Of a stretch of DNA of 64,000 nucleotides, positions 33,705 to 64,000 are shown piece by piece (the stretch's first letter is position 1; every line of letters begins with the position of its first letter). The translations under genes and the position numbers were made by a program. This stretch comes from an uncultured Burkholderiales bacterium (GTDB lineage: Bacteria > Pseudomonadota > Gammaproteobacteria > Burkholderiales > Burkholderiaceae_C): assembly GCA_903830725.1 (NCBI GenBank), contig CAIKVH010000048.1, positions 62,001 through 126,000 on the forward strand. Reading direction: 5' to 3'. The notes below the pieces were generated by a model. That model worked only from the letters and a program-made list of their open reading frames with translations, was not told the origin of the DNA and searched no databases.

Positions 33705-33779
33705 GACTGGAAGTTAAAACTTATCAAGCATAGCCGAAGTAGCCGTAAAAGAGTATGCGCTAATAAAAGGAGATCAACT

Positions 33780-35024: not shown

Positions 35025-35069
35025 CTGCGAAAGCAAAAATTTAATGTTGACAATAATTTGAGAGTTGTT

Positions 35070-45054: not shown

Positions 45055-45189
45055 CCCCTTTTCCTTGTTTTTTTCGAAGCCAATGGGATAATGGTGTGAT
45101 TGCAGGTCGTTGGTGTAAACCCTAAAAATTAGAGCCACTGAAGCGAGTTAGATTAAACTTCAATTATTGTAAAAACTACAGGAGATGTC

Positions 45190-45654
45190 ATGAGCGTAAC
45201 TTTTCAGTTAAACGGTAAGACTGTATCAGCCAAGGCTGAAACGGATACCCCACTTTTGTGGGTTATCAGGGATGAGCTAGGACTAACGGGTACTAAGTTT
45301 GGCTGTGGAGCAGCGCTTTGCGGTGCGTGTACGGTTCAGCTCAATGGGCAAGCGGTGCGCTCATGTCAGACGACGCTTCAGTCTGTTGCGGGTCAAAAAG
45401 TGACCACAATCGAGAGTCTTGGAAAGGATAACAAACATCCCCTGCAAGCTGCTTGGATCAAGCATGATGTTCCCCAGTGTGGCTATTGCCAATCAGGCCA
45501 GCTGATGAGTGCTCATGCACTCCTTACGGTTAATAAAAATCCTACCGATGCAGAAATTGACGCCGCGATGAGTGGCAACGTTTGCCGGTGCGGTACTTAT
45601 TCGCGCATTAAAGCCGCTATCAAAGATGCGGCCCAAGTAATGCGCAGCGCCTAA
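45190..45654 (+). CDS. iorA: 2Fe-2S subunit of isoquinoline-1-oxidoreductase-like enzyme
   Basis: A 154-residue small subunit of the xanthine oxidase family. The plant-type cluster is bound by [14 protein letters not shown] plus SCQTT, and the second by CGYCQSGQ and CRCGTYSRI. It shuttles electrons from the molybdenum site of the large subunit. An AGGAG site precedes the ATG. It is coupled with iorB 25 bases later. The gene symbol reflects best resemblance; other substrates (aldehydes, N-heterocycles) are possible. Confidence 0.88.
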
Positions 45655-45678
45655 ACATATTGCCAAAGGAATAAGACC

Positions 45679-49271: not shown

Positions 49272-51425
49272 TTACATTGTATTTTCAATGGTTTGCGTGA
49301 TGTTTTCAATTGTAAATGGCATGTTCCTGAACCTAATGCCTAGCGCGTGAGAGAGAGCGTTGGAGAGGGCTGCAGCGGTGGGGCCTGCTGCCACCTCTCC
49401 TGCACCAAGGCTCATGTCTCCCGTGTTTTCTATCAATTCGATATGTATTTCAGGAATTTCATCAAATCCCAGTATTGGATAGGACTCCCAGTCCGCGGAG
49501 GTAACAGCGTGCGTGTCCCAACGAACGCTCTCTTTAAGAGTCCAACTCAGGGACTGAATGATTCCCCCTTCAATTTGGTTTAGCAAACCGTCTTTGTGAA
49601 CAACTGCGCCTGCATCAACGCATGCCCAAACCTTTTGAACACTAACTTTATGACTGACTTCAACGAGGATGGCGATTGCACAGTGACCAGCGTGATTTTT
49701 ATACTGTGAATAGGCAAGGCCTAAGCCAATGGAGTTACCAGCATCTCCGCGGGTGTTCCAATTTGACATCTCACTGACCTTTTGAACAACTGCTTTAGCC
49801 CGGTCGCTTTTGAGATTTTTAAGTCGCAACTTGACCGGATCCATTTGTATTTGCTCGGCGAGTTCATCCATAAAACTCTCTATTGCAAACACATTGGCAT
49901 GTGCACCCAATGAGCGCAGAGCGGAGACCCGAACGGGGGATTGCGCAATAAAGTGGTGCTCAACTCTCAGGGCGTCCATGTTGTATGGAGGAATTATGTT
50001 TCTGAGTCCGCCTCCAGTGGGGAGGGGAACGTCTTTAGGGGTTGGTTTAAGCGCATCTCCAAAAGCGCTCCAATAGCCCATTAGTTGTACGCCGTCTCCC
50101 CATCCTGGTCTGCTCAGATGGGTGTTGGACCACACCTGCGCATTCCAATTTGAGATTTCGCCTAGGTTTGATATTTTTGCACTGAGCTCAACCAAACTGG
50201 CTGATCCCATGGGTGAGTGAGTCAGCTCATCTGCTCTGCTCCAAACCACGCGAACTGTGATGTTTAAGGAGTGAGCAATGAAGGCGGCGTCAAACACGAC
50301 ATCATCAGCCCCGTTGTGTCCGTAGCAACCTGCCCCAGGAGAGTGTTTGATCCGAACTTGCTTGGGATCCAGGTCTAGAGCTTTACAGATTTGTTCCCTA
50401 AGCTTGAAAACGCCTTGACTGTGAGACCAAAGCGTTAGGTGTGTTCCATCGCTGGAGGGTTGCGCAACAGCACAAGCCAAGCCAATGGATGCATGCGCTA
50501 TGTAGGGTCTGGAGTAACGCTGGGTGAGAGATTTAGAAGAACCGTGTTTGTCGCTTGATTCAGATTCCTGGCCCTCGCGCTTGACCTCGCCTATGCCTTC
50601 GCCTACGACAACCGTACTGTGCTTGTTTTGATGGATTAGCAATTCCTCCACCGAGTCATAAACCAGGGCAGGGGGTTTTGTCCATGTAATCTCTTTTTGC
50701 GCTTTAATCTGCGCCTGAATCAGTTGCTCCTCATCTTTACCAATCAGCGCAATAAAATCATTTTTAACAAATACTTTATCCACACCCACCAAGCTTTCTA
50801 GGGCTTGATGATTTAAATTCTGCGGTCTGCAGTGGGGGTGCGGACCTCTTACGATGCGTGCATGCCAAAGCTCAGGAAGATCGATGTCGTGGATATAACC
50901 GGCGCTTGTGAATTTTTTTAGTAAGTCGATACGGTCTACGTCAATACGTTCAGGCAAAGGATGATCTAGGATTTTTAGATTGGAATCATCAAGGCGAAGA
51001 TTTTGAAGGTTCGCATCAGCTGAGATTTGATGAAAGGAGAGGCGCTGACCACTAGCCGATTTAAACTCGCCGTTTGATAGTGTGAGTTCAGATGTGCTGC
51101 AATTTAAGGTTTTTGCAGCAACCCTTGCATATTCGCTACGAATTAGGCGGCAAACGTGTTTTAAAGCGGCAACACCCACTTCAACAGACTGACTACCGGC
51201 GGTGTAACCCTCGTCAGGGGATTGTCCTGTGTCTCCGGCTATCAATACAACCTGCTCTGAACCAAATCCTAACTCCCAACATACGGTTTGGATTAAAGCG
51301 GCAGAGATCCCTTGCCCAAGTTCTACTTTGCCGCTGAAGACAATAACCTCAGCCTTCGGGTTAAAGTTAATCCATTGGCTGGCAACGGGGTGAGACAAAA
51401 CGCTTGTGGGTAGGGGGGTGGACAT
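49272..51425 (-). CDS. Molybdopterin-binding large subunit (nicotinate-dehydrogenase-like)
   Basis: A 717-residue xanthine oxidase-family large subunit without a signal peptide. FSGKVELGQGISAALIQTVC, AGDTGQSPDEGYTAGSQSVE, HSPGAGCYGHNGADDVVFDA, and the catalytic glutamate region MSLGAGEVAAGPTAAALSNA are visible. The pattern resembles the NicB-type branch of nicotinate dehydrogenase but lacks the cytochrome c domains of NicB. It hydroxylates an N-heterocycle or similar. A 2Fe-2S subunit gene lies 28 bases upstream. It is the last gene of the catabolic operon. Confidence 0.85.
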   Translation of the reverse strand: MSTPLPTSVLSHPVASQWINFNPKAEVIVFSGKVELGQGISAALIQTVCWELGFGSEQVVLIAGDTGQSPDEGYTAGSQSVEVGVAALKHVCRLIRSEYARVAAKTLNCSTSELTLSNGEFKSASGQRLSFHQISADANLQNLRLDDSNLKILDHPLPERIDVDRIDLLKKFTSAGYIHDIDLPELWHARIVRGPHPHCRPQNLNHQALESLVGVDKVFVKNDFIALIGKDEEQLIQAQIKAQKEITWTKPPALVYDSVEELLIHQNKHSTVVVGEGIGEVKREGQESESSDKHGSSKSLTQRYSRPYIAHASIGLACAVAQPSSDGTHLTLWSHSQGVFKLREQICKALDLDPKQVRIKHSPGAGCYGHNGADDVVFDAAFIAHSLNITVRVVWSRADELTHSPMGSASLVELSAKISNLGEISNWNAQVWSNTHLSRPGWGDGVQLMGYWSAFGDALKPTPKDVPLPTGGGLRNIIPPYNMDALRVEHHFIAQSPVRVSALRSLGAHANVFAIESFMDELAEQIQMDPVKLRLKNLKSDRAKAVVQKVSEMSNWNTRGDAGNSIGLGLAYSQYKNHAGHCAIAILVEVSHKVSVQKVWACVDAGAVVHKDGLLNQIEGGIIQSLSWTLKESVRWDTHAVTSADWESYPILGFDEIPEIHIELIENTGDMSLGAGEVAAGPTAAALSNALSHALGIRFRNMPFTIENITQTIENTM

Positions 51426-51453
51426 GGTGGGTCAATCCGGTGAGGGGTACTGA

Positions 51454-51918
51454 TTACGGATTGGCGAGTTGGTTTCTAGCAAGCTTTGCGGCTTTTAAAA
51501 TTCTCAAATGTGCGCCGCACCTGCATAAGTGCCGAGAAAGTGCTTCAGTAATTTGCTGATCAGAGGCGTTCTTTTCTTTTCTGAATAATCCCGTCAGCCG
51601 CATCATGATGCCGTTTATACAGTAACCGCACTGCGCTGCTTGTTCCTTCAAGAATGCACCGAGTACAACCTTACCAACCGGGTCCTCCTTCAAGCCGCTA
51701 GGCGTCATGATCTCAGCATTTTCAACAGACCAGGACGGCGTGCTACAGGAGTTTTCAGCTTGACCGTTAACCAATACAGTGCAAGCTCCGCAGTGTCCAC
51801 TCCCGCATCCGTAGCGTACGGATGCATCTGCGCAGGTTGTCCTGAGTGCATGATACAGCTGAGCACCGGCGGAGGACTCAATCGATTGCTGTTTGTTGTT
51901 GTGTTTTATCTTAACCAT
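51454..51918 (-). CDS. 2Fe-2S subunit of the second molybdenum hydroxylase
   Basis: A 154-residue small subunit of the xanthine oxidase family, with cluster ligands YGCGSGHCGACTVLVNG and SCST for the first cluster and CGYCINGIMM with HLCRCGAHLRI for the second. It passes electrons from the large subunit encoded 28 bases downstream. Compared with iorA the ligand spacing is the same but the surrounding sequence differs, so the two pairs are old paralogues, not recent copies. Confidence 0.88.
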   Translation of the reverse strand: MVKIKHNNKQQSIESSAGAQLYHALRTTCADASVRYGCGSGHCGACTVLVNGQAENSCSTPSWSVENAEIMTPSGLKEDPVGKVVLGAFLKEQAAQCGYCINGIMMRLTGLFRKEKNASDQQITEALSRHLCRCGAHLRILKAAKLARNQLANP

Positions 51919-51972
51919 TTAACCAGCTATTTTGTGAGCCACTTGAAATCAAGACTTTAATGTCTTTTAGCA

Positions 51973-52863
51973 TTAAGCTATTTTTGCGTTCTTTATCCAC
52001 CAAGCAGCTAATTGGGTTCCGTCCGCGTCCCCAAGCCCCGCGGTGGAGGCTGCATTGAAGGAGTTGAGGGCGGCTTGAGTAGTTGGAAGCTCGTAGCCTA
52101 GGGCCTTTGCCTCTTCCACCATCGTCCTCAAATCTTTCCTAATGGAGTCAATGTTAAAGTGTGCAGACTCAGCAGGCTTACCCTCAAGCGCTGCAACAAC
52201 GGCAGGGATCCTCATTTTTAAAATGGCCGGTGTACCAGATGTGTCAGACAAAATATCCATTATTTTTTCAGGCTTCAGTCCCGAATGTTGAGCGATTGAT
52301 AACGCCTCTCCCAGGGCTTGCCAATAAATTAGCAGAGGCAAATTGATAGCGAGTTTCATACTCGCGCCACTGCCTACTGCTCCTACATGCTCTAATCTTC
52401 TGCACATCTGTAAGAGTACGGGTTTTGCTTTCTCAAAATCCTCATCACTACCACCAGCCAGTCCAAACAGTTTGCCGTCTCTGGCTGGTCCAACCGTTCC
52501 CCCAACTGGACACTCCACAAAGCCACCACCGGCCGCTTTCACTTTAGCCCCTAAATCGATACCCGTTTGAGGCCTAACTGTACTCATGTCAATGAATAGT
52601 TTGCCTTTAACGTTTGAATTAAGCGCACCCGTGTTCCCTAAGTACGCTCCCTCGATCGCCTTTGCATCTGTTAAAACAGAGATGATGATTTCGCTATGTT
52701 CAACGGCTTGAGCTGGAGTTTGCGCAAGGCTTGCCCCGCGATCGGTCAGTGCTTTGGTTTTAGAGGGCGTTCGGTTCCAAACCGTTAATGTGTGTCCCTG
52801 GTCGAGAAGTCTCTCTCCCATTGCGCTGCCCATACGCCCAGTTCCCAAAATTGCTATTTTCAT
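51973..52863 (-). CDS. 3-hydroxyisobutyrate dehydrogenase-like NAD(P)-dependent reductase
   Basis: Beta-hydroxyacid dehydrogenase of 296 residues. The cofactor motif is ILGTGRMGSAMGERLLDQGH, followed by VWNRTPSKTKAL (Arg suggests NADP), the substrate loop FVECPVGGTVGPARDGKL, and catalytic lysine in GSGASMKLAINLPL. It reduces or oxidises a 3-hydroxy acid or related semialdehyde. It lies 29 bases after the amidohydrolase gene, in the middle of the catabolic operon. Confidence 0.87.
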   Translation of the reverse strand: MKIAILGTGRMGSAMGERLLDQGHTLTVWNRTPSKTKALTDRGASLAQTPAQAVEHSEIIISVLTDAKAIEGAYLGNTGALNSNVKGKLFIDMSTVRPQTGIDLGAKVKAAGGGFVECPVGGTVGPARDGKLFGLAGGSDEDFEKAKPVLLQMCRRLEHVGAVGSGASMKLAINLPLLIYWQALGEALSIAQHSGLKPEKIMDILSDTSGTPAILKMRIPAVVAALEGKPAESAHFNIDSIRKDLRTMVEEAKALGYELPTTQAALNSFNAASTAGLGDADGTQLAAWWIKNAKIA

Positions 52864-52892
52864 ATGCTATCTCTGAATTAATGATGAAGAGT

Positions 52893-54110
52893 TTATTTAA
52901 TCTTGAAGATCTTCATGGCGTTTCCACCCTCAATGAGTTTTCTGTCCTCTGCCTTGAGTTTGTTAACTTCAGCGATTAACCCGCGTGGATCATCCTCTCC
53001 CATGTCGTAAGGGTAGTCGGTGCCTAGCATCACGTGGTCTGCACCGTAACGGTCGATTAGGTTTTTAAGCATTCTTGGATCGAAGGTGATCGTATCAAAG
53101 TAGAACTTCTCCAGATAGCTAGAAGGCTTTTTCTTAATGACGGTTCTCGTGTCGGGTCTTGCGCGCCAAGCATGATCCATCCGAGCCCAGTAATGCGCCA
53201 CAAATCCGCCGCCGTGTGCTGCGATGAATTTGATTTTAGGATGGCGCGCTACTACGCCGTCAAATATGAGGTGGCTTACGGCTATTGTCGTATCAAGTGG
53301 GTTGCCAATTACGTTGTTGAAGTAATGGTTTGTGAGTCGCTCGCCCTGCGTGAATCCAAGTGGATGCATGAAAATCACGGTCCCGAGTTCATTGGCTTTT
53401 GCAAAGAATTTCTCCAGTCCTAAGCGAGGATCTGTAAGGTTCATGCCGTTGACGTTGGTGTTGATCTCAACGCCGCGTAGTCCTAATTTCTTTACCGCAT
53501 ACTCAAGTTCCTGCACCGCAAGCTCAGGGTTTTGAAGTGGCACAGATCCCATACCAACAAAACGGTCTGGATGATCGCTCACCAACTGGGCAATACCTTC
53601 ATTCACCTCTCGGGCAAGCTCAGCGCCGTATGCAGGCTCAGTGAAGTAAAAGTAGTGATAAGGGGCTGGGCAAACGGCTTGGATATCAACGCCCATTTTG
53701 TCCATATCTTTTAAGCGCTCAGTAATACCCGTTAATTTAGGTGCTCGGGTCTTCATTTGAGCAATGTTAGTGTCATTGGTTAGTTTATTCGCGTAAATAA
53801 CTGTTGGATCATATTGAGCGGCGTTGAGGTGAGCCGTCTTTTGATTCACAACGGGGTTTAAATAGTGACAGTGAATGTCAACAATTTTATGTTTGCCCTT
53901 CGAGTTTTTAACGACCACTTTGCTGGAGGGTTTAACTTTGACAGAAGTTTTGCTTTTACTCGAACTCTTTGTGGCAAATGCGCGCTCGACACCTGCTTCG
54001 TATGCGAACTCAGGGTTGATAGAGGACTCGTCTTCGCTGCGAGACATGCGCTCGTTGGCCGAGTGGCTGTGAGAGGGATCAGAGCAAGAGGGGAGACAAG
54101 TAAAGAACAT
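52893..54110 (-). CDS. ACMSD-like amidohydrolase/decarboxylase with N-terminal extension
   Basis: Metal-dependent amidohydrolase-fold protein, 405 residues. The core starts near residue 77 with IVDIHCHYLNP (HxH metal site). It continues with GMGSVPLQNPELAVQELEYA, IFMHPLGFTQGERL, IKFIAAHGGGFVAHYWARM and MLGTDYPYDMGEDDP with the catalytic Asp. These are features of the ACMSD/gamma-resorcylate decarboxylase group, which decarboxylates or hydrates aromatic or ring-cleavage acids. Residues 1-75 are an added part with Cys/His residues (CLPSCSDPSHSHS) and a Ser/Lys-rich linker. AAGGA is 7 bases before the ATG. It sits 84 bases after livF. Confidence 0.85.
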   Translation of the reverse strand: MFFTCLPSCSDPSHSHSANERMSRSEDESSINPEFAYEAGVERAFATKSSSKSKTSVKVKPSSKVVVKNSKGKHKIVDIHCHYLNPVVNQKTAHLNAAQYDPTVIYANKLTNDTNIAQMKTRAPKLTGITERLKDMDKMGVDIQAVCPAPYHYFYFTEPAYGAELAREVNEGIAQLVSDHPDRFVGMGSVPLQNPELAVQELEYAVKKLGLRGVEINTNVNGMNLTDPRLGLEKFFAKANELGTVIFMHPLGFTQGERLTNHYFNNVIGNPLDTTIAVSHLIFDGVVARHPKIKFIAAHGGGFVAHYWARMDHAWRARPDTRTVIKKKPSSYLEKFYFDTITFDPRMLKNLIDRYGADHVMLGTDYPYDMGEDDPRGLIAEVNKLKAEDRKLIEGGNAMKIFKIK

Positions 54111-54194
54111 GGTAATCCTTGGTGAATAAGATTGAAAAAAATTTAAAAAATTAAGAGAAAATGGAAAAGTAAAAGAGTTGAATTTGAACCGTGT

Positions 54195-54908
54195 TTAGAA
54201 GATACCTAAATGTTGAGTTGCCAGTTCTGGATTGGCAGCGACTTCCTCGGAAGTGCCTTTAAACGCAACGCGGCCCGTGTTTAGTATTACAAAATCATCG
54301 GCGAGGGTCTTTGCGACTGAGAAATTTTGTTCCACCAAAATAATGGAAAGCCCTTCATTTTTGAGCTTGGCGATTGAGTGGTTGACCTCTTGAACAATCA
54401 AAGGTGCGAGTCCCTCAGAAGGTTCATCCAGTAAGAGTACGCTTGGATTTCCCATCAGTGCTCGGCCTATAACGAGCATCTGTTGCTCACCCCCCGATAG
54501 AGTCCCTGAGCGTTGGTCTTTTTTAGGCTTAAGTGCAGGAAACAAATCGTAAACCTTGGCCAGATTCCACTGAGACGTGTTGCCCTTCTTTTGTTCGGCA
54601 ACAATCAAATTCTCTTCAACGCTCAGACTCGCGAAAACTCTTCTGCCTTGAGGCACCAATCTTATGCCGCTCTTTGCAATGGACTCGGGTGAGTGGTGGG
54701 CAAAGTTTACGCCTTTGAGGTGCATTTCTCCTGAGCTCACGGGAAGCAAGCCAGAGATGGTCAGTTGGGATGTGGTCTTACCAGCTCCGTTGCGTCCCAT
54801 CAGCGCTAGCAAATGGCCTTGCTTTAACTCAAAACTGACGTTGTGCAAGACATGGCTGTCTCCGTAATGAACATTCAGGCCATTGATTTCAAGGATATTA
54901 GTGGCCAA
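54195..54908 (-). CDS. livF: Branched-chain-type ABC transporter ATPase (LivF-like)
   Basis: Start chosen at TTG 54908 because AAGGAG lies 6 bases upstream and the protein then begins LATNILEINGLNVHYGDSHV as usual for LivF; the frame to 54965 would overlap livG extensively. The 237 residues include Walker A GRNGAGKTT, Q-loop, signature SGGEQQML, Walker B LLLDEPSEGL and the H-loop region. It energises uptake of a small organic molecule with livGHM. It overlaps the livG stop by 11 bases. Confidence 0.93.
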   Translation of the reverse strand: MATNILEINGLNVHYGDSHVLHNVSFELKQGHLLALMGRNGAGKTTSQLTISGLLPVSSGEMHLKGVNFAHHSPESIAKSGIRLVPQGRRVFASLSVEENLIVAEQKKGNTSQWNLAKVYDLFPALKPKKDQRSGTLSGGEQQMLVIGRALMGNPSVLLLDEPSEGLAPLIVQEVNHSIAKLKNEGLSIILVEQNFSVAKTLADDFVILNTGRVAFKGTSEEVAANPELATQHLGIF

Positions 54909-55638
54909 GGTAGATCTCCTTGGTTTGAGGGTGGTTAACCACTGTGTCTCTGTCCCCCTCAACAATCAAAGTGCCGTAGTGAAGGAGAGTAATTTTTTCA
55001 GCAAATGCGAGTGCTACGTCCATATCGTGTTCAATCATAACGATCGTGGTTGACCTTGGAATGGAGGAAATTAGATCTTTCACCCAAAGTCTCTCATCGT
55101 GGGATAGTCCAGCAAGTGGCTCATCGAGTAACAGTAATTTGGGTTTTTGAGACATAGCCAAACCAATCTCAATACGGCGTTGCTCGCCGTATGACATTTC
55201 ACCTACTTTCCTAGTAGCACTGCTGGCTAAATCCACGCTCTTCAAGATCTCAAGAGCTTGCTCATAAATGTCGTCAGTGACTCTTAAACTGCGCAAGGGA
55301 TTGAACCTTTGTTGACTAACCCCGAGCAGGGCAAGTACAACGTTATGTGCTGCAGTTTCTTGATTAAACAAGTTAATGATTTGAAAGGTGCGGCTTACCC
55401 CCAGATGAGGTCTGGTTTGGGGGGGGAGATGTGTAACGTCTTTGCCGTAGACTTTTACGGTTCCTGAGGTCGGTAGGATTTCCCCAGTAATTTGGTTAAA
55501 TAGAGTGGTTTTTCCTGCGCCGTTAGGTCCAATGATGAGTCGTCGTTCCCCGCTTTGAATTTGCAGGGATAAATTATTGGTGACGGTTACGCCCCCAAAT
55601 TTCTTGCATAAATTATTAACTTCTAAAGCGTATGTCAT
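54898..55638 (-). CDS. livG: Branched-chain-type ABC transporter ATPase (LivG-like)
   Basis: ATPase of 246 residues: Walker A GPNGAGKTTLFNQITGE, LGVSRTFQIINLF typical of LivG, signature MSYGEQRRIEIGLAM, Walker B LLLDEPLAGL and the H-loop EHDMDVAL. It pairs with livF beneath the two permeases. Its ATG overlaps the livM stop by 4 bases and its end overlaps livF, so livHMGF are tightly coupled. Confidence 0.94.
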   Translation of the reverse strand: MTYALEVNNLCKKFGGVTVTNNLSLQIQSGERRLIIGPNGAGKTTLFNQITGEILPTSGTVKVYGKDVTHLPPQTRPHLGVSRTFQIINLFNQETAAHNVVLALLGVSQQRFNPLRSLRVTDDIYEQALEILKSVDLASSATRKVGEMSYGEQRRIEIGLAMSQKPKLLLLDEPLAGLSHDERLWVKDLISSIPRSTTIVMIEHDMDVALAFAEKITLLHYGTLIVEGDRDTVVNHPQTKEIYLGH

Positions 55639-56579
55639 GATTTCTTACCTGCCTTTGATTTTAAGAAGTTCAGGTTCGAAGAGACTATGCCCTTGGGCAA
55701 GAAAATAACAATGAATAAGAAAACAAATCCAAGCAACATATTCCAACGCTCAATGTAAGCAGAAGCATAGTTTTTGAGTATGACAACCAAGATGGCACCA
55801 AAGATGGGGCCAAGTAGCGTGCCAGAGCCACCCGCAATCACACAAAGCAAAGCTTCAGCGGAGACAGTGATGGCCATTACGCTTGGGTGTATGTATTTGT
55901 GAAAATACACATACAGTAGCCCTGCAACCGCTCCCAAAAAGGCTGCTACTACGTAGGTGAACCAACGAATCGCCCAAACGTTATAGCCCAGCGCTGTCAT
56001 CCTTCTGGGTTGATCTCTGGTTCCTTTTATTGAAGCGCCAAAAGCAGACTGAACCAACTGCCTTATAAAGGCCAGGCAGCACAAAGTGATGATGAGTGTG
56101 AACCAAAAGAAATGGCTACTGATTTCTAAATCAATTCCAAAGGGTGACGGACGCGTTAGACCAGATAGGCCGTTGTCGCCGTTGGTGACCGATACCCATC
56201 TATAGGCAAGACCCCAAGCGATTTGGGATAAAGCCAAGGTCAGCATTAAAAATCCTAGCCCTGTCGCACGCAGAGCAATCCAACCAAACACCATCCCGAA
56301 AAGAGTGGTGAGTAGGAGTGCTGCAGGTGCAGTGACAGAATGATCAAGACCTAGATTGATACCCAACCAAGCTGAGAAGTAGGCTGCTAGCCCTAAAAAA
56401 CAAGCATGTCCAAGGGATGTGAGCCCAGCGTAGCCTACAAGTAAATTGAGGCTTGACGCAAAAATGACTGCGATGAGTGCTTGACTGGCTAGGTTTACAA
56501 AATACTCATCACCAAAGATGGGCAGGCAAGCCAGAGCGGCAATTGCCGAGCAAATGATGAAAGGACGCAAGTACTTCAT
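55635..56579 (-). CDS. livM: Branched-chain-type ABC transporter permease (LivM-like)
   Basis: Inner-membrane permease of 314 residues with about nine hydrophobic segments and the LivM markers LLVGYAGLTSLGHACFLGLAAY and VIAGGSGTLLGPIFGAIL, plus the ATPase-contact loop KGTRDQPRRMTALGYNV. Its 5' end overlaps livH and its 3' end overlaps livG by 4 bases each. Confidence 0.94.
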   Translation of the reverse strand: MKYLRPFIICSAIAALACLPIFGDEYFVNLASQALIAVIFASSLNLLVGYAGLTSLGHACFLGLAAYFSAWLGINLGLDHSVTAPAALLLTTLFGMVFGWIALRATGLGFLMLTLALSQIAWGLAYRWVSVTNGDNGLSGLTRPSPFGIDLEISSHFFWFTLIITLCCLAFIRQLVQSAFGASIKGTRDQPRRMTALGYNVWAIRWFTYVVAAFLGAVAGLLYVYFHKYIHPSVMAITVSAEALLCVIAGGSGTLLGPIFGAILVVILKNYASAYIERWNMLLGFVFLFIVIFLPKGIVSSNLNFLKSKAGKKS

Positions 56580-57436
56580 GTGATAACACGTCCAAAAAGA
56601 CCTTGAGGTTTAAACGCAATCACGATAACCATGGGTAAGAATAAAATGACATACGCAAGATCAGGTACAAGCGCAATTCCAAAGGTGTAGATAAATCCAA
56701 CGATGAAGCTGGCTACGAATGTTCCAAATAAACTGCCCACTCCACCAAGGATCACAACAATAAGAGCAAGCGGGAGCATGTCCCCGTCAAGTCCCGGGTA
56801 GGCGTTGAAGATGGGCCCCCCAAGTGCTCCTCCTAATCCAGCGAGTCCAGCGCCCAAACAAAATACGGTTGTAAATAGCAAGGATGCGGGAATACCAACA
56901 GCACGCGCCATATCCATGTCATCTACACCGGCTCTGATCATTGCACCAATCTTTGTGCGCTCGATCAGCAGGTATAACAACACAGCAACGATGACTGCAA
57001 ACGTGAGTACGACGAGTCGGTAAGTTGGAAAGCTGAGATCAAGAAAGTGGATGGGCGATTGAAACAGCGCGGGGGTTGAGACCGGGATGGGATCCCCTCC
57101 CCAGGCCATCAAACAAAAGTCCGCAGCAATAAAGGACAGTCCAAGCGTCGCTAGTACCTGTCCCTGTGAGTTGCCACTGAGTCTCCTCAGAATAAAACGC
57201 TCGATGAGCCCGCCCAACACAGCAATGCTTAACATCGCAGCAATATCAGCAAGAAAAAGGTTGGTCCCGTTTCTAACTAAAACTGCTGTGATGTAGGCGC
57301 CTATCATGAATAGAGCGCCGTGGGTTAAATTTGCGATACGCATTAATCCGAAAATCAGAGCAAATCCGGAGGACAGCATAAACAGCAGTCCTCCTAACGA
57401 TAGGCTATTTAGCGTTTGGATTATCCAGATTTGCAT
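56576..57436 (-). CDS. livH: Branched-chain-type ABC transporter permease (LivH-like)
   Basis: Permease of 286 residues: LNSLSLGGLLFMLSSGFALI, MRIANLTHGALFMIGAY, the ATPase-contact segment RTKIGAMIRAGVDDMDMARA and LGGVGSLFGTFVASFIVG are typical of LivH. It is 10 bases downstream of the binding-protein gene, which starts the transporter block. Confidence 0.94.
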   Translation of the reverse strand: MQIWIIQTLNSLSLGGLLFMLSSGFALIFGLMRIANLTHGALFMIGAYITAVLVRNGTNLFLADIAAMLSIAVLGGLIERFILRRLSGNSQGQVLATLGLSFIAADFCLMAWGGDPIPVSTPALFQSPIHFLDLSFPTYRLVVLTFAVIVAVLLYLLIERTKIGAMIRAGVDDMDMARAVGIPASLLFTTVFCLGAGLAGLGGALGGPIFNAYPGLDGDMLPLALIVVILGGVGSLFGTFVASFIVGFIYTFGIALVPDLAYVILFLPMVIVIAFKPQGLFGRVIT

Positions 57437-57446
57437 GATTTAATTC

Positions 57447-58688
57447 TCAAGATTCCAAGTTCTTTGCGGGAGGCCATTCTCTTGAGTACACAGGATTTGC
57501 CAGGAATTGCTTTTGGTCATAAGTCCAGAACTGACTTATGTTGGGGTAGGTCTTAACGATTGAGTTAACGAGTCTGCCGTCCTTTCTCTCCACCTCCCTC
57601 ACATAGACGTCGCCGACCACGTTGCCAAGGCTGTCAAAGGTAAGCGGGCCACGGGCGGTTTGAATATTGGTCTTTTTCAGCGCTGCCATTAAAGCAGCTT
57701 TGTCTGAGAATTTTCCTTTAACCGCTTCCACAGCAGCTTCAAGAACAGAGCCATTCACATAGGACCCTGCAGCGTAATAGCCAGGGTCATAGCCAAAGGC
57801 CTTTCTAAATGCAGGCGCAAATTTAGCATTGATTGGGTTCTTCAGTTCCGCGGAGTACCAACACACCGTTTTGATACCAATTGCCTCATCCCCCATGTTT
57901 CTGAGAACAGACTCATCTAGCGCGGTCATCCCGCCGATGAGAGCCATCTTGCTCTTAAGTCCATATTCGTTGAACTGACGAACAAACCGGAAACCGTTTG
58001 AACCAGCGAAACCGAGGAAGATTCCGTCAACGTTGGTTTTGAGTTGCGCAAGGAAACTTCCGTAATCCGGGGTTGTGAGGGGGGAGAAGATTTTTTGAAC
58101 AATCTTGCCACCACCTTCCTCAAATACACGCTGAAAGCCTGCGTTCATTTCGTGGCCGTATGCAATGTCATCGGCAATCATTGCCATACGCTTAAATTTG
58201 AGATCTTTAACGCAGTGTTCAGCCATGACGTGGGCAGATTGTGCTGAGGTCGATGTTGCTCTAACAAACCATGGGTTAGGCTTACGCTGCGTCATGTCCT
58301 CAGCGGCGGCAACGGAGAGAGTAGGTATCTTGTTGGTTTTGATGTAGTCATCAATAGCCAGGGCTTCAAACGCTGCTAAAGGACCCGTCAACACGTGTAT
58401 TTTGTTGAGCTCATACAACTCTTGAATTTTTGATTTTGCAGTGGCTGGAACCCCTCCTGTGTCGGCTACAAAAAGTTGTACTTTTTTGCCCGCAATCATG
58501 TTGTTTCTCTCGGTAAGGTACATCGTCAGTGCACGTTCCATATCGATACCGCCTGAGGCGAGGGGCCCTGTCTTAACGGTTAAAAGACCGAGGCGCAAAA
58601 CATCATCCTCTGCTGCCTTGACCTGAGGGAATGCCATAGTTGCCCCAACTGCAGCAGTGCTTTGTATAAAATTTCTTCTGGTTGTCAT
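57447..58688 (-). CDS. ABC transporter substrate-binding protein (LivK-like)
   Basis: Periplasmic binding protein of 413 residues, type I fold. The N-terminus MTTRRNFIQSTAAVGATMAF has a twin-arginine-like motif and cleaves near KAA. The core shows LRLGLLTVKTGPLASGG, VQLFVADTGGVPATAKSKIQ and GPLAAFEALAIDDY, and the hinge region has AMIADDIAYGHEMNAGFQRV. The ligand is unknown; aromatic or amide compounds are common for the catabolic-island versions of this family. It is the first of the five transporter genes and follows the CocE gene after 47 bases. Confidence 0.92.
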   Translation of the reverse strand: MTTRRNFIQSTAAVGATMAFPQVKAAEDDVLRLGLLTVKTGPLASGGIDMERALTMYLTERNNMIAGKKVQLFVADTGGVPATAKSKIQELYELNKIHVLTGPLAAFEALAIDDYIKTNKIPTLSVAAAEDMTQRKPNPWFVRATSTSAQSAHVMAEHCVKDLKFKRMAMIADDIAYGHEMNAGFQRVFEEGGGKIVQKIFSPLTTPDYGSFLAQLKTNVDGIFLGFAGSNGFRFVRQFNEYGLKSKMALIGGMTALDESVLRNMGDEAIGIKTVCWYSAELKNPINAKFAPAFRKAFGYDPGYYAAGSYVNGSVLEAAVEAVKGKFSDKAALMAALKKTNIQTARGPLTFDSLGNVVGDVYVREVERKDGRLVNSIVKTYPNISQFWTYDQKQFLANPVYSREWPPAKNLES

Positions 58689-58735
58689 GTTGTCTCCTTT
58701 GATTTTTTGGGATTACTGAACGCTTATTTAATGGA

Positions 58736-60475
58736 TTATTTCTTTGGAATGACAGGAATCAATAAATAGTTTTCCATATTTTTGGAGAAATGCAAACTAC
58801 TTTGTCCACCAAAGGTGTTGGGTGGGCGATCCCTTGGATCATCGTGTAAGAAAGGCCCGCAACCTAGCAACTCATTTTTAAAGTTAGAAAGTTTGAGTCC
58901 TGTTTTCTTGGAATAAGTGTAATCTTTACCGCGCACACTTAAGCCAATTCTGTAGCCCTTAGGGATAACGATAGATGTAGGCCAAATCTCAACATCCAAC
59001 TCAACGGGTTGACCAGGAATAAGGGCTTGAGGGGAAACGTGAGTGTGGTAAGGCCTATACGGCCTGGTGAGGTCTTTATCTAGCGCTCTGTGGGAGGCTC
59101 TGAGCCAGCCCTGCGCGACCGGCGTATGCGGGTCAATCGCTCCTGCAAAGGTCACTTCTCTTAGATCCGGTGTAAAAATACGAACCACTAAGAAAATATC
59201 TGCATCGCTGGTATTTGAAGAGACCCAAAGCTTTGCAGCAAGGGGGCCAGTTAGCTCAGTTTGCTCGTCAAGGGGTTTGGATAGGAAACTCAATCCTTCT
59301 CCAAGTGCGTCAAAACTTAGTGTACGCTCCTCTTGGGACGGCTCAAATGAAAGCCCTTGGTGCGTAGGCTCCAGGTGCAAGCGAGTCCACTTTGTTTGGG
59401 CGAGAGGCCAATCTGACTCAACTCGGTCCTCGAAATGGTCAGTATGCCTGACCTGCAAACGCACTGGTGGTTCCTTGTCCCAGCCATTTTTCTCGCCCTT
59501 GAGGAAATAGGCAAAAAATCTTTTCTGTAGAGCAACGCCGTAATCGGTATAAAAGTGTGTCCAATGCTCAAGGCCGTGCATCTCAAGCCACTTGTTTTTA
59601 GACGCTGCCCTCATAAAGGACTCACTGTTACCTCGCAAATGAAGTCCCTGTCCTCCCCAGTTTCCGGCAGACAAGAAGGGTACGGTTATCCGGTCCCAAT
59701 TTGCAGACCTTGCTCGGTGGTATTCGTCGTCAACCGGGTGAGCCAAAATATCATCGCCAAATGAACAGCGGTTTTTCTGAAGTGTCCTGTCGTCCAGCGT
59801 CTCATCCCCGCAGACCAGCGTCCCATTGGCTTTGCTCTTAGGGCCCCGTTCGCCTAATCCGTATTGAACGGTCTTCACCTGCATGTCATACCAGTTTGCC
59901 CAAAAGGTAGACAAAATACCGCCGTGGTGCGTCATGTCTCTGTACCAATCGCTCGCGCCTTCCCAAATACACATCGCAGCAAGGTGAGGTGGGTTTTTTC
60001 CAGCAACATGCCATTGGTTTATGCCAAAGTAGGAAACACCACTTAGACCCACCCGACCGTTACTCCAGTCTTGAACCCCAGCCCATTCGATGCATTCATA
60101 AAAGTCTTGAGTTTCCTGAGGTGCGAAATGATCAATAAAACCCGGAGAACGCCCGCATCCTCTGGAGTCCACTCGAACACACACATATCCATCGGGTACC
60201 CATTTCTCGGGATCAACAACTTCCCAGTTCTGGTAAAGGTTGGTCGATCCGTAGGGAACATCAGGGTGCTCTGTGATCATCTTCTGCCACGCGCTCGGAT
60301 AGCCTTCTTGAAATGCAAGCCCCTTTGCATATGGACCGTAACTCAAGAGGACAGGATATTTCCCGGGCACCTTAGGGCGGTAGACATCGGCGCGAAGCGT
60401 CAGTCCGTCGGCCATGACTATTGGCATGTCCCAGTCAATTTGCATGAAGGTGGGCGTTTTGGTGTGCGCGTTCAT
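58736..60475 (-). CDS. CocE/NonD-family hydrolase
   Basis: A 579-residue serine hydrolase of the cocaine-esterase/acyl-peptidase-like group. The N-terminal alpha/beta domain carries the oxyanion region LLSYGPYAKG, VDSRGCGRSPG and nucleophile Ser148 in GVSYFG; a histidine lies in GLEHWTHFY. The C-terminal PepX-type jelly roll follows from about 330. The site normally holding the Asp reads SAGNWGGQGLH, without the aspartate. It should cleave an ester or amide to an acid and alcohol or amine. It lies 24 bases after the monooxygenase gene. Confidence 0.85.
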   Translation of the reverse strand: MNAHTKTPTFMQIDWDMPIVMADGLTLRADVYRPKVPGKYPVLLSYGPYAKGLAFQEGYPSAWQKMITEHPDVPYGSTNLYQNWEVVDPEKWVPDGYVCVRVDSRGCGRSPGFIDHFAPQETQDFYECIEWAGVQDWSNGRVGLSGVSYFGINQWHVAGKNPPHLAAMCIWEGASDWYRDMTHHGGILSTFWANWYDMQVKTVQYGLGERGPKSKANGTLVCGDETLDDRTLQKNRCSFGDDILAHPVDDEYHRARSANWDRITVPFLSAGNWGGQGLHLRGNSESFMRAASKNKWLEMHGLEHWTHFYTDYGVALQKRFFAYFLKGEKNGWDKEPPVRLQVRHTDHFEDRVESDWPLAQTKWTRLHLEPTHQGLSFEPSQEERTLSFDALGEGLSFLSKPLDEQTELTGPLAAKLWVSSNTSDADIFLVVRIFTPDLREVTFAGAIDPHTPVAQGWLRASHRALDKDLTRPYRPYHTHVSPQALIPGQPVELDVEIWPTSIVIPKGYRIGLSVRGKDYTYSKKTGLKLSNFKNELLGCGPFLHDDPRDRPPNTFGGQSSLHFSKNMENYLLIPVIPKK

Positions 60476-60499
60476 TTAATTTGAGTGACTAGATTTCAA

Positions 60500-61588
60500 T
60501 TACTTGATAGCAGCGTTAACTCTTGGCATAACTTCTGTTGCGAAAAGCTCCATTGAACGTTTAGCAAGTTTCGGATCCATCCAGTCATGACAAGCGTACA
60601 CGAGGTTCCCAAAGTCACCCACGTGCTCGCGGAATGCAAGAATTTGGTCAACAACCGAGTTCACCGTTCCTGCCAACACCAATCGTTTGGACACGTACTC
60701 AGGCGTTATCTCCGAGTCGGGCATGTTTTGATCCGTTTTGAAGAGATTACTCCTTCCCCCGCCGGTTACCAGTTTGCGGACCAGTTGTTTGAAGTAGAAG
60801 TGGTAAGGGCCGCCTTCTTCAAGAGCATAGCGTTTTGCTGTGGCCTCGTCATCGGCAACAAAGATGCTCTTCGCCACACGCCAATCTGCGGGGGAGGGGG
60901 TGGCCCCCACTGCCTCACGCCCTTCAACATATTTAGGCCAATGGGTTTTAACCCATTCAGGCATTAAAAAGTTTGCTGATATGGGGAACCAACCTCTTTT
61001 GGCCATCTCAGCAACTCCTTGAGAGAAAGGAGCTACCGCAGTTCCGACAATCTGTGGATAAGGTTTTTGGTAAGGTTTCATGATGAAGCCTTGTCCGATT
61101 TCTGGGATCATCGTCTTCTCGACAGATATTTTCCAAAACTGACCTTCGATGTTATATGGAGGCTCAGATTCCCAAATTTTTAGTACAGTGTTAATACACT
61201 CAACAAACATGGCGTTTCTGTCTTTGCCAAAGCTACCAAACACCTCTGCATCTGACATCAAGCCACCAGGGCTGATACCCATAATTAAGCGTCCCTTGAG
61301 CAAGTGGTCTAACATGGCCACATGAGCAGCAATTGCAGCGGGATGAGAGTTAGGAAGGTTTAAAGTCCCGGTGCCTAGTTTGATGTTTTTGGTCTCATGG
61401 GCTAATGTAGCTAAAAAAATCATACTCGAGGTGACGGTTTCTGCAGCATCCGTAACATGCTCGCCAACGTAGGCCTCACTAAATCCTAGCTTGTCACCCA
61501 GGATAATGGCTTCTCTGTCCTCCTGCAAGCTCTCCGTTACGTTGCGTCCAGGCGGGTGCAAGGGCATCATAAACATGCTGTGTTTCAT
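60500..61588 (-). CDS. Luciferase-like (LLM) flavin-dependent monooxygenase
   Basis: Bacterial-luciferase fold of 362 residues, using reduced FMN delivered by a separate reductase. Diagnostic segments are FMMPLHPPGRNVTES, GFSEAYVGEHVTDAAETV, IKLGTGTLNLPNSHPAAIAA and GRLIMGISPGGLMSDAEVFG. The resemblance is to alkane/limonene-type and other two-component oxygenases. The nearby flavin reductase gene, 71 bases upstream, is the likely partner. The substrate is unknown; oxygenation at a ring or ether is typical. Confidence 0.88.
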   Translation of the reverse strand: MKHSMFMMPLHPPGRNVTESLQEDREAIILGDKLGFSEAYVGEHVTDAAETVTSSMIFLATLAHETKNIKLGTGTLNLPNSHPAAIAAHVAMLDHLLKGRLIMGISPGGLMSDAEVFGSFGKDRNAMFVECINTVLKIWESEPPYNIEGQFWKISVEKTMIPEIGQGFIMKPYQKPYPQIVGTAVAPFSQGVAEMAKRGWFPISANFLMPEWVKTHWPKYVEGREAVGATPSPADWRVAKSIFVADDEATAKRYALEEGGPYHFYFKQLVRKLVTGGGRSNLFKTDQNMPDSEITPEYVSKRLVLAGTVNSVVDQILAFREHVGDFGNLVYACHDWMDPKLAKRSMELFATEVMPRVNAAIK

Positions 61589-61659
61589 TTCTTGATTCCT
61601 TTAATTAAGATTCTTTATTGGCTGGGTTAGGTACTTCTCTAGGTTCAGCATCAAAGGAT

Positions 61660-62160
61660 TTAAACCATCACTAGCTCATCGCCTTTCATGTACTTGCCTT
61701 TGCAAAACATAAGAGTGGCGAGATCTTGGTATGCATAAGCCTCTACCTCACCCAGGTACAAAATATGATCGCCCGCTTCTATGCGTTGGTATGTCTTGCA
61801 CTGAAAACACGCGGCGCAGTTGTCGATCAAGGGTATTCCTGCAATGCCATCGCTGTATGCAACTGTGTTGAATTTGTCCGGTATTGGGCTCGCAAATCTT
61901 TTGGATAAATCTGTCTGCGTTAAGGTCAGCACATTGATCGCAAACCGAGCACTATGGTCAAAAGCGTCCATGCTAGGGGAGTTTTTCTTCAAACTCCAAA
62001 GCACCAATGCCGGCTCTAGTGAGACAGAGCTAAAAGAGTTGGCGGTGACCCCGACCCTTTGGCCATCTTCAGCAAGGGTCGTCACAATGGTCACGCCAGT
62101 GGCAAAACTGCCTAGCGCTTTTCTAAAGTCGGTCGTTATAAATGGAGTCTTAGTGTTCAT
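61660..62160 (-). CDS. Flavin reductase family protein
   Basis: A 166-residue FMN reductase of the RutF/HpaC-type fold. FRKALGSFATGVTIVTT, GVTANSFSSVSLEPALVLWSL and FDHSARFAINVLTLTQTDLS are visible. It supplies reduced flavin to the LLM monooxygenase encoded next. It is probably the first gene behind the promoter in the 65-base gap that holds the FNR-like palindrome. Confidence 0.9.
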   Translation of the reverse strand: MNTKTPFITTDFRKALGSFATGVTIVTTLAEDGQRVGVTANSFSSVSLEPALVLWSLKKNSPSMDAFDHSARFAINVLTLTQTDLSKRFASPIPDKFNTVAYSDGIAGIPLIDNCAACFQCKTYQRIEAGDHILYLGEVEAYAYQDLATLMFCKGKYMKGDELVMV

Positions 62161-62161
62161 T

Positions 62162-62212
62162 TGATCACTTAAAAGTTTGATGTATTTGAAGTGATCATTT
62201 GATCTATATCAA
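62162..62212. promoter_or_regulatory. Operator region with FNR-type box and TetR-type inverted repeat
   Basis: TTGATCTATATCAA (62199-62212) is a perfect 5-4-5 FNR/Anr consensus palindrome. Next to it, TGATCACTT (62162-62170) and AAGTGATCA (62189-62197) form a 9-base inverted repeat across 18 bases. All lie between the TetR gene stop and the flavin-reductase start, just before its ATG. The site suggests oxygen-responsive control plus a second factor, possibly the TetR protein. Confidence 0.6.
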
Positions 62213-62225
62213 TCAGGGGTTTCCC

Positions 62226-63053
62226 TTAAACGGGCGAATTAACAGAATTATTTGGCTTTATTTGCTTTTTAATGCCGAGGATTTCGGGGAGAACCACAAC
62301 GGCGCCAGCTACAAAATGCGCAATGGTTTGCCTGATAAGGTCGTCTAGATTGTCCTCAACAGGGACATTAAAAATCCATTGCCTTTGGCCAAAATAAAAG
62401 ACTCGGGCATTGATACTCCAAACAAGCTCAATCTCCGCAGTCTTCAGGGGGATTTCGCTAATGGTTGGCAACCCCAGTTCATGGCGCAACTCAGTCGCTA
62501 TGGGCTCAAGGATTCGTGTTTTTAGGATATCCAGATATTTGCGGTTGATATCCTCCCCCCGCAACCCTGAGAACATGAAGATCCGAACCCAGTCCCATGT
62601 GAGCGCTGCTTTCGCGTACTCAATATACAACCGAGTCAGGCGGTCCTGCAAAGAGATAGTCCTGTCCTTGATCACAGTTTCCCAAAATGGATTCCACCGA
62701 CCCAAATAAACCTCTTCAAATACCCTATTGATTAGGGCTTCTTTATTGGGAAAGTATTTGTACAGCAGCGACTGCGTGACCCCGAGTCGTTGCGCTAACT
62801 CCCGTGTGTCTCCCCCAAACCCTACCTCTGCGAAGTACTTCACCGCCTCCCGCGCAATGAGTTGCTCACGCTCGGCGCCGCTGAGTCTCTTTGGGGATTT
62901 CAAAAGTGGGGTAGCTGAATTAAGGGTTGCGCCGTCACCGGCACCGTGGCCATCACCTTGTGCGACGCCAACACTTTCGGCCACGGACCCAACCGCATCA
63001 GAGGTCTGAGCCTTGGGCGTTACGAGCCTTTTGTTTTTGGGTAATGTAGCCAA
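62226..63053 (-). CDS. TetR/AcrR-family transcriptional regulator
   Basis: A 275-residue regulator. The first 60 residues form an unusual low-complexity extension (GSVAESVGVAQGDGHGAGDG). The HTH is in LAQRLGVTQSLLYKYFPNKE, followed by a ligand domain of about 150 residues. It presumably senses a pathway compound and represses the operon. It lies in the operon between the Gfo/Idh and flavin-reductase genes, 65 bases upstream of the latter. Confidence 0.9.
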   Translation of the reverse strand: MATLPKNKRLVTPKAQTSDAVGSVAESVGVAQGDGHGAGDGATLNSATPLLKSPKRLSGAEREQLIAREAVKYFAEVGFGGDTRELAQRLGVTQSLLYKYFPNKEALINRVFEEVYLGRWNPFWETVIKDRTISLQDRLTRLYIEYAKAALTWDWVRIFMFSGLRGEDINRKYLDILKTRILEPIATELRHELGLPTISEIPLKTAEIELVWSINARVFYFGQRQWIFNVPVEDNLDDLIRQTIAHFVAGAVVVLPEILGIKKQIKPNNSVNSPV

Positions 63054-63084
63054 TTTAATTAATAACTGTCATCAAAGCATCTAC

Positions 63085-64000
63085 CTAGCCAATAGAAGCC
63101 GATTGAACGACTTCTAGTTTTTTGCTCTTGGCTGAGATCATCACCGCCTCTAATGCGGCAACGTTAGCCAGCATCTCAGCGCTACTCACAGGGTAGGGCT
63201 TAATTCCCTGCACGGCAAGTGCAAAAGCCTCCAAGTTAGCAAGCACTGTTGGGTGCGCAGGAGCAAATCTTGCGGTGGTGTCTTGTCCTCTGATAACGGT
63301 TTTAATGTCCCATCCAGTCGGATTCTCTGGGTGCGTTCTGTCCCTAATTTCTACCCATCCCTTTGATCCGTAGACTGCAAATCTCCCCTCAAAAGGGGTG
63401 GCAAGCACAGCAGAGATCATTGCGTTGGCTCCATTTTTAAAGCCCATCATGATGCCAAGGGTGTCGCCGTTCTCGAAATTAGAGCCAAGGGTCGCAAGCC
63501 TGGCCCAGAGTTGCTCACAGGGACCAAGGATCGCAATACTCAAATCCACCAAGTGGATGCCGGTTGCTGTGAGCGGGCCAACTGGTGCAAATGCATTGGA
63601 TAAACGCCAATTGTCCTTTGGAAGGGCAAAGAATTTGTCCTGGCTGAAATTAGCCTCTATTTGAAGAATTTCACCCAAGGTTCCATTTGCAATCATCTCC
63701 CTCAACTGTATGATTTCAGGCTCGAACCTGCGTTCATGACCAATACCTAAAACCAAATTGTGCTCTTTACAAATCGATATCGCTTGTTCCGCGTCTTTAA
63801 GGTTTAAGCACAGGGGTTTCTCGCAAAATACATGCAACCCATGCTTGGCCGCTTTCACGATTTGACTGGCATGCTCAAGGTGAGGGGTGCACAAAATGAC
63901 CGCATCTAAGTTTTCTTGGGCTATCAGTGCATCCACCCCCCCGTGCAACTGAACGTCTTTGAGCAAGGGGTCTGAGGACATTTCTTTGCGAATGTCCTCA
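63085..64000 (-). CDS. Gfo/Idh/MocA-family oxidoreductase, 5' end beyond window
   Basis: The reading frame continues past the right edge (EDIRKE precedes the first internal Met), and the Rossmann start with its GxGxxG motif is absent, so the gene is cut. The visible 300 residues show AVILCTPHLEHASQIVKAAK, HVFCEKPLCLNLKDAEQAI and a substrate-domain catalytic region with GIHLVDLSIAILG. This NAD(P)-dependent family oxidises or reduces sugars or other hydroxyl compounds. It is 31 bases upstream of the TetR gene on the same strand, so probably part of the same operon, with more genes expected upstream. Confidence 0.88.
   Translation of the reverse strand, partial: EDIRKEMSSDPLLKDVQLHGGVDALIAQENLDAVILCTPHLEHASQIVKAAKHGLHVFCEKPLCLNLKDAEQAISICKEHNLVLGIGHERRFEPEIIQLREMIANGTLGEILQIEANFSQDKFFALPKDNWRLSNAFAPVGPLTATGIHLVDLSIAILGPCEQLWARLATLGSNFENGDTLGIMMGFKNGANAMISAVLATPFEGRFAVYGSKGWVEIRDRTHPENPTGWDIKTVIRGQDTTARFAPAHPTVLANLEAFALAVQGIKPYPVSSAEMLANVAALEAVMISAKSKKLEVVQSASIG

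Follow-up and report, generated by a model that had tools for sequence, protein, structure and literature searches.

Gene Content and Organization of the Operon

The DNA analyzed here is a stretch of 64,000 nucleotides (the window) comprising positions 62001-126000 of the 130,849-base contig CAIKVH010000048.1, part of the 3.05 Mb draft genome of an uncultured Burkholderiales bacterium. From position 49272 to beyond the window end, 14 consecutive genes lie on the minus strand, with intergenic gaps of -68 to +84 bases, and combine a luciferase-like monooxygenase with genes for regulation, transport, and further catabolic steps. An initial annotation had reported fourteen minus-strand genes with gaps below 90 bases, in agreement with the largest gap of 84 bases. 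Every gene that it named is present on this strand, and the fourteenth, which it counted without naming, encodes a Gfo/Idh/MocA oxidoreductase. In the order of transcription, the genes of the predicted operon are:

63085..64000, minus strand: Gfo/Idh/MocA oxidoreductase (GFO), first in the operon and truncated at the window edge; PF22725/PF01408/PF02894
62226..63053, minus strand: TetR-family regulator (TetR); PF00440 at residues 68-111
61660..62160, minus strand: flavin reductase (FR) of the HsaB/HpaC/FerA type; PF01613
60500..61588, minus strand: luciferase-like monooxygenase (LLM), proposed type II Baeyer-Villiger oxygenase; PF00296
58736..60475, minus strand: CocE/NonD-type hydrolase (CocE), proposed ester/lactone hydrolase; TIGR00976, 234 bits (cut-off 66.3)
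57447..58688, minus strand: periplasmic binding protein with Tat-like signal; PF13458; PF10518, 22.4 bits (cut-off 22.7)
56576..57436, minus strand: LivH-type permease; PF02653
55635..56579, minus strand: LivM-type permease; PF02653
54898..55638, minus strand: LivG-type ATPase; PF00005
54195..54965, minus strand: LivF-type ATPase, TTG start as listed; PF00005
52893..54110, minus strand: ACMSD-like amidohydrolase (AHY), proposed non-oxidative decarboxylase; PF04909
51973..52863, minus strand: beta-hydroxyacid dehydrogenase of the 3-hydroxyisobutyrate dehydrogenase family; PF03446 and PF14833
51454..51918, minus strand: [2Fe-2S] subunit (FeS) of a molybdenum hydroxylase; PF01799 and PF00111
49272..51425, minus strand: molybdenum-binding large subunit (MoL); PF20256 and PF02738

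The full GFO frame has 349 codons and starts 134 bases past the window end (L004, 1086-2135). The -68 gap, an overlap of LivF and LivG, rests on the TTG start listed for LivF, and a later start would abolish it. The true start of TetR probably lies about 60 codons downstream of its TTG; close homologues span 75-82% of the listed frame. Between positions 48600 and 64000, neither terminator-like sites (14 found, 18.0 expected from shuffles) nor promoter-like sites (13 found, 16.4 expected) exceed expectation, so that an internal break in the operon is neither indicated nor excluded. The proposal that these genes form one catabolic unit for uptake, oxygenation, hydrolysis, a decarboxylase-like step, dehydrogenation, and molybdenum-dependent oxidation is supported, on comparative data and not on transcripts.

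Conservation and Linkage in Relatives

Relatives were compared through 80 LLM loci, the best 80 of 589 confirmed matches, which describe close relatives only. Several of these loci are near-identical (e.g., L077-L079; L069, L070, and L072), so that counts over them are not independent; many are cut by contig ends, and the gene counts use set identity limits. Freshwater and soil relatives share the operon in full or in part, among them strains named as Limnohabitans, Polynucleobacter, and Ramlibacter. The closest LLM among the 80 loci (95% identity) comes from an uncultured Burkholderiales bacterium (L045). All 14 genes are found in conserved order in a member of the same genus (L026) and in L047, the latter at 45-90% identity, and a further locus of the same genus that is cut by a contig end (L025) keeps the genes from a partial flavin reductase through MoL. 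Limnohabitans sp. JirII-31 (L092) carries 13 genes in order; a gene for a hydroxyacid dehydrogenase (45%) lies at another place in this locus.

Smaller combinations recur as well. The core GFO-TetR-FR-LLM is joined to AHY-FeS-MoL in L031 and lacks other labeled operon genes in L032, L033, and L030, of which the last is known for only 1.6 kb past LLM. A block of CocE, binding protein, Liv, FeS, and MoL genes lies beside LLM on the opposite strand in Ramlibacter ginsenosidimutans (L086) and in L083, and a dehydrogenase-FeS-MoL block diverges from a binding protein-LivH block in Polynucleobacter kasalickyi (L079). Over the 80 loci, FR was counted in 51, GFO in 45, TetR in 25, AHY in 22, the hydroxyacid dehydrogenase in 20, MoL in 15, and FeS in 12; CocE and the binding protein each occur in 12 loci, and together in eight. 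When 20 stretches centered on CocE were inspected, two (L161 and L174) combined CocE with Liv genes and AHY, seven (L163-L169) had a divergent hydroxyacid dehydrogenase gene without Liv genes or AHY, and several of the remainder had tripartite-type receptor genes as their sole labeled families.

Linkage was also apparent at the level of whole genomes. Among 300 genomes of the order, 32 have LLM, 23 have CocE, and 15 have AHY. Of the 23 CocE genomes, 21 also carry LLM, as do 14 of the 15 AHY genomes, and AHY and CocE coincide in 10. These figures take three draws of 300 (E limits 1e-150, 1e-90, and 1e-120) as identical, as handles and tallies suggest, and the overlaps were counted by hand from listings. 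With relatedness ignored, the hypergeometric tails are 3e-22 for CocE-LLM, 1.7e-14 for AHY-LLM, and 2e-9 for AHY-CocE, and 1.5e-9 and 8e-11 over 135 genera.

A meeting of unrelated blocks by chance would agree with the occurrence of every block alone. Against it, the same families stand together in changed orders in L086, L083, L092, L079, and an alphaproteobacterial locus (L120), and the genome-wide tails are small. Chance assembly is very improbable on this evidence and was rejected. The co-occurrence in other Burkholderiales that the initial annotation had suggested looking for is thus found, extends to Alphaproteobacteria, and is accompanied by sub-blocks that occur apart. Because the same families recur together and apart in the loci and genomes of relatives, the operon is a joining of modules that are joined repeatedly.

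The Oxygenase and Its Flavin Reductase

LLM matches PF00296 at 131.4 bits. Its best solved relative by sequence is the 3,6-diketocamphane monooxygenase 4uwm (E 3.4e-31), followed at a distance by a match of 1.7e-16. A predicted model (pLDDT 83.5) also has 4uwm as its best fold match (Z 35.6, rmsd 3.4, 350 aligned residues), and the next entry outside 3,6-diketocamphane monooxygenase reaches Z 32.7. According to one study, His46 and Glu52 are the only cavity residues common to both diketocamphane enzymes and are not conserved in the wider family (PMC4631483). The residues H44 and E50 of LLM align with this pair and are invariant in 15 sequences and near-invariant in 81. More distantly related proteins of Agrobacterium (two), Paracoccus, and Marinovum have the pair as well, and it is absent from a remote second Marinovum LLM (21%) and from RutA. 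RutA-like ring opening by LLM was considered and rejected: E. coli RutA is 18% identical in a forced alignment, the best BLAST E value is 0.054, and E43-H44 is absent.

The flavin reductase gene lies directly upstream of LLM in the window and in 28 of the 80 loci. Its product matches the NCBIfam model for p-hydroxyphenylacetate hydroxylase reductase at 183.8 bits, under the cut-off of 340. As judged from sequence and predicted structure, LLM and its reductase are best read as a two-component type II Baeyer-Villiger monooxygenase. Precedents for such an assignment are an LLM reported to convert progesterone to testosterone acetate (PMC12239570) and a chain of dehydrogenase, type II Baeyer-Villiger monooxygenase, and esterase that was proposed for SAR202 (PMC5395668).

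A Proposed Catabolic Route

We propose, with somewhat less than even confidence, that the operon is catabolic and centered on a two-component type II Baeyer-Villiger step. The Liv-type importer would take up the substrate, and the Gfo/Idh enzyme would convert a secondary alcohol to a ketone; the frequency of GFO in the LLM loci is counted as support for this supply of ketone. LLM, receiving FMNH2 from the adjoining flavin reductase, would insert oxygen beside the carbonyl to give an ester or lactone, which CocE would hydrolyze with release of a beta-hydroxyacid. The 3-hydroxyisobutyrate-dehydrogenase-like enzyme could then yield a beta-oxo acid or semialdehyde acid, from which the ACMSD-like amidohydrolase would remove CO2, and the FeS/MoL pair would oxidize the remaining aldehyde to an acid, all under regulation by TetR. 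The order of the genes would roughly follow that of the chain, from alcohol through ketone, ester, hydroxyacid, oxo acid, and aldehyde to acid. The sequences show the gene set, its conservation, the family assignments, and the conserved residues; we infer each reaction, the reaction order, and that an alcohol or ketone function sits on the ring or chain of the substrate. For the substrate class, our favored guess is a ketone, alicyclic or aromatic, that belongs to dissolved organic matter.

The Hydrolase Slot

Residues S148 and H304 of CocE are invariant in 34 of 34 sequences, and we assign them to the catalytic triad, with S148 as the nucleophile, by comparison with cocaine esterase. The position expected for the triad aspartate of cocaine esterase is occupied by G275/Q276 in this protein. 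The acids E285, E298, and D311 are conserved, and N272 and H279 are invariant in the 34 sequences. In this CocE subfamily, the acid of the triad appears not to be at the cocaine esterase position.

The next labeled gene within 350 bases after LLM encodes AHY in 11 of the 80 loci, CocE in eight, a PcaD-like hydrolase in eight, GFO in seven, and the hydroxyacid dehydrogenase in four; 26 loci lack a labeled gene there, two are cut by an edge, and others make up the remainder. Two hydrolase families in one slot are as expected for an oxygenase that forms esters or lactones. In the alphaproteobacterial locus L120, LLM is followed by CocE, TetR, beta-hydroxyacid dehydrogenase, SDR, and P450 genes, with a divergent binding protein-Liv block. 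This set reads as camphor-type, in which hydroxylation, ketone formation, oxygen insertion, and hydrolysis would follow one another. LLM, CocE, TetR, a dehydrogenase, and a cut P450 gene are likewise found in L118.

A different arrangement of the same enzymes would make CocE the first to act, on an imported ester. The dehydrogenase, AHY, and molybdenum enzyme would then treat the acid part. The alcohol part, or a different substrate, would fall to the LLM/flavin reductase/GFO module, with TetR as the common regulator. The two stretches with CocE, Liv genes, and AHY, and the seven with CocE divergent from a dehydrogenase gene, all without LLM in the stretch fetched, fit this arrangement, as does the existence of the GFO-TetR-FR-LLM core without CocE. 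The placement of CocE directly after LLM in the eight loci, which come from both Beta- and Alphaproteobacteria, and the presence of LLM somewhere in 21 of the 23 CocE genomes argue against it, and we consider it unlikely.

The ACMSD-Like Amidohydrolase

The closest relative of AHY by sequence is ACMSD, and in the fold search LigW and ACMSD are tied as best matches (Z 36.1 and 35.6). Among the best 20 fold matches, 18 are titled decarboxylases and two amidohydrolases. The zinc ligands His9, His11, His177, and Asp294 of ACMSD, together with His228, are kept in AHY as H80, H82, H249, D365, and H299; the roles of these residues are those given in PMC11650718. R310 aligns with Arg239 of ACMSD. R122 is invariant in 21 sequences, yet it lies one column off Arg51 of ACMSD in the phmmer alignment.

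Residues 1-16 of AHY also contain the motif M-x-[FY]-T-C-x(3,4)-C-x2-P-x-H-x-H. Between it and the barrel lies a variable linker of about 30 to 80 residues that is rich in Ala, Lys, and Ser. The motif is present in 29 of 33 entries at 50% identity or above (28 distinct genes, as L175 and L229 overlap). L172, L230, and L231 are without it, L063 is cut ahead of its position, and none of 16 entries below 40% identity has it. This Cys/His motif looks like a small metal site; the model of the N-terminus shows no fold, its pLDDT averaging 47-51 over residues 1-20 and about 30-35 over the linker, and the region is predicted to be disordered.

Other Enzymes and the Binding Protein

In GFO, E105, K106, H194, and D197 are near-invariant in 39 sequences, and S94, K170, N174, K243, and D244 of the beta-hydroxyacid dehydrogenase are invariant in 33 of 33. 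The FeS subunit contains two [2Fe-2S] motifs (C38, C43, C46, C58, C97, C100, C132, and C134, near-invariant in 12 sequences). Glu677 of MoL, which we take to be the active-site glutamate of the xanthine oxidase family, is found in 14 of 15 sequences, the remaining one (L092) being gapped there. The FeS/MoL pair has both Fe-S motifs and the glutamate of that family, and no FAD subunit gene adjoins it. Only one solved match of MoL, an aldehyde dehydrogenase large subunit, has a best stretch that covers nearly the whole protein; the match to nicotinate dehydrogenase is partial.

The best solved matches of the binding protein are 4ey3/4eyg/4eyk (E 2.4e-55), which we take to be R. palustris proteins with aromatic acids bound. 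A ligand read off these structures was rejected, the relatives being too distant.

Beside the operon, on the opposite strand (44302-47850), lie genes for a ModA-like protein and for another FeS/MoL pair, in which a Tat-like signal was recognized by eye. In L026, too, the operon is adjoined by the end of this second MoL gene and the HAD gene after it.

Weighing the Route and a Heterocyclic Alternative

Several observations weigh against the Baeyer-Villiger route. LLM shares only 26-28% identity with the diketocamphane enzyme. Roughly equal in closeness (30%) is a protein of R. opacus (Rhodococcus) whose name, limonene 1,2-monooxygenase, is that of an epoxidase; it also keeps H44/E50, so that the pair is not exclusive to type II Baeyer-Villiger enzymes. 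His46 presumably occupies the position of a luciferase histidine and is for this reason weak evidence alone. CocE and the PcaD-like hydrolases both have the alpha/beta-hydrolase fold, and the PcaD-like proteins are only 31-33% identical to the labeling query. AHY rather than a hydrolase is the next gene after LLM in 11 of the 80 loci, and in 26 there is no labeled gene within 350 bases. The core is found without CocE, Liv, AHY, or molybdenum genes in several relatives, and the best named relatives of GFO act on sugars and cyclitols. Trp194, used by ACMSD, is replaced in AHY by His262, which is invariant in 21 sequences; the tryptophan contacts the substrate carboxylate, according to PMC11650718. 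Because this position holds a histidine, AHY is classed, on sequence and model, as a decarboxylase-like protein and not as ACMSD itself. Finally, a gene resembling 2,6-dihydroxypyridine hydroxylase lies near LLM in 10 of the 80 loci, as well as in L225 and L229, and points to other chemistry.

That gene bears on the substrate favored initially, an N-heterocyclic aromatic compound or an ester or amide of one. The molybdenum enzyme would hydroxylate the ring, LLM would open or hydroxylate it, and the ACMSD-like enzyme would decarboxylate a ring-opened or pyridine acid. The best solved match of the neighboring gene product is 2,6-dihydroxypyridine hydroxylase (E 5.7e-49, with the next at 8.2e-18). 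In addition, a PuuE-like gene (allantoinase family) lies near LLM in 13 of the 80 loci, a CoxL-type molybdenum hydroxylase subunit occurs in nine, and the enzyme closest to AHY in sequence, ACMSD, acts on an aminomuconate. On the other side, LLM resembles a ketone-oxidizing enzyme and is unlike RutA, the MoL matches favor an aldehyde dehydrogenase over nicotinate dehydrogenase, and the genome of the window has no 2,6-dihydroxypyridine-hydroxylase match at E <= 1e-15 in a search lacking a positive control. A heterocyclic substrate is not established for this operon, and we hold it to be doubtful; the dihydroxypyridine-hydroxylase-like and PuuE-like neighbors keep N-heterocycles in view for part of the LLM family.

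The ten loci with the 2,6-dihydroxypyridine-hydroxylase-like gene are L071 (4713-6008), L046, L049, L062, L063, L093, L104, and L109-L111. Five of them also carry VOC and carboxymuconolactone-decarboxylase-like genes, the latter named by eye.

Comparison With Known Systems

Baeyer-Villiger catabolism by LLM-type enzymes is already known for camphor and has been reported for progesterone (PMC12239570). The operon shares with the camphor pathway (CAM plasmid; 3,6- and 2,5-diketocamphane monooxygenases) an LLM-fold oxygenase, a separate flavin reductase, the His/Glu pair, and the logic of a ketone-forming dehydrogenase. It differs in that the proposed dehydrogenase is a Gfo/Idh enzyme, LLM identity is low, no P450 is encoded among the 14 genes (one is in the relative L120), and CocE, the Liv importer, the ACMSD-like enzyme, and the molybdenum oxidase are added. 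The pdc cluster of Caenibius tardaugens, compared by description only, likewise has a catabolic LLM, reported to make an ester from a ketone, beside regulators; it is described as two oxygenases and two regulators, with the flavin reductase elsewhere in the genome (PMC12239570). The SAR202 type II Baeyer-Villiger families proposed for recalcitrant dissolved organic matter share the chain from alcohol to ketone, oxygen insertion, and an ester opened spontaneously or by an esterase. Those are genome-wide paralogue families, in contrast to one compact operon with an importer and downstream enzymes here (PMC5395668).

With ACMSD and related amidohydrolase-2 decarboxylases (LigW, gamma-resorcylate decarboxylase, and IDCase), AHY shares the fold, zinc ligands, catalytic histidine, and, by alignment, an inter-subunit arginine; it differs in the histidine in place of Trp194 and in the additional N-terminal motif and linker. 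The Rut pyrimidine operon of E. coli also unites a regulator, an LLM, the RutF reductase, and a hydrolase, but the LLM described here has no detectable similarity to RutA. Searches of an open-licence library turned up no paper on this gene set, in which CocE, the Liv importer, the ACMSD-like protein, and the molybdenum oxidase are joined to an LLM; the initial annotation likewise knew no named pathway with exactly this set.

Wider Significance and Neighboring Genes

Few substrates have been proven for type II Baeyer-Villiger enzymes. Ocean genomes have led to the proposal that these enzymes help to turn over recalcitrant organic matter (PMC5395668). Since the importer, regulator, oxygenase, hydrolase, and downstream enzymes lie in one operon, the substrate can be sought through the ligands of one binding protein and through gene deletion. 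It is possible, though in our judgment improbable, that the operon represents a widespread, hitherto undescribed route, modular in its make-up, by which Burkholderiales of fresh water and soil process ring compounds from dissolved organic matter. Its TetR-controlled dehydrogenase/type II Baeyer-Villiger core would be linked exchangeably with an importer, with a hydrolase of either family, and with ACMSD-like decarboxylases that form a new class and have an N-terminal Cys/His metal-type motif.

No dyad common to more than two of 24 upstream stretches was found as a TetR operator. The word TCATTTGAT, present in 12 of the 24, was rejected as an operator and taken for the ribosome-binding site plus start codon of a gene that runs divergently. 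Upstream of GFO (L004, about 2193), a remnant-like TTCATTTGATCTC has one mismatch to a word of relatives. In ten relatives, we take the matching word to be where a second, divergent hydroxyacid-dehydrogenase gene (24-26% to HIBD) has its ribosome-binding site and start; this gene is absent upstream of GFO here.

Elsewhere in the window (32718-35975) are genes for an SMP-30/gluconolactonase-like protein, an HsaA-like flavin monooxygenase, and an EamA transporter. Because homologues of the first two lie near LLM in other loci (L056, L069, L070, L072, L075, and L076), the catabolic island may be larger than the operon. In P. kasalickyi (L079, 12680-13948), an AndAc-like ring-hydroxylating dioxygenase alpha subunit is encoded near LLM (411.5 bits, under the cut-off of 750). 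A gene for an LVIVD-repeat protein, at 60% identity or above, lies near LLM in 13 of the 80 loci (e.g., L092, 2163-3413).

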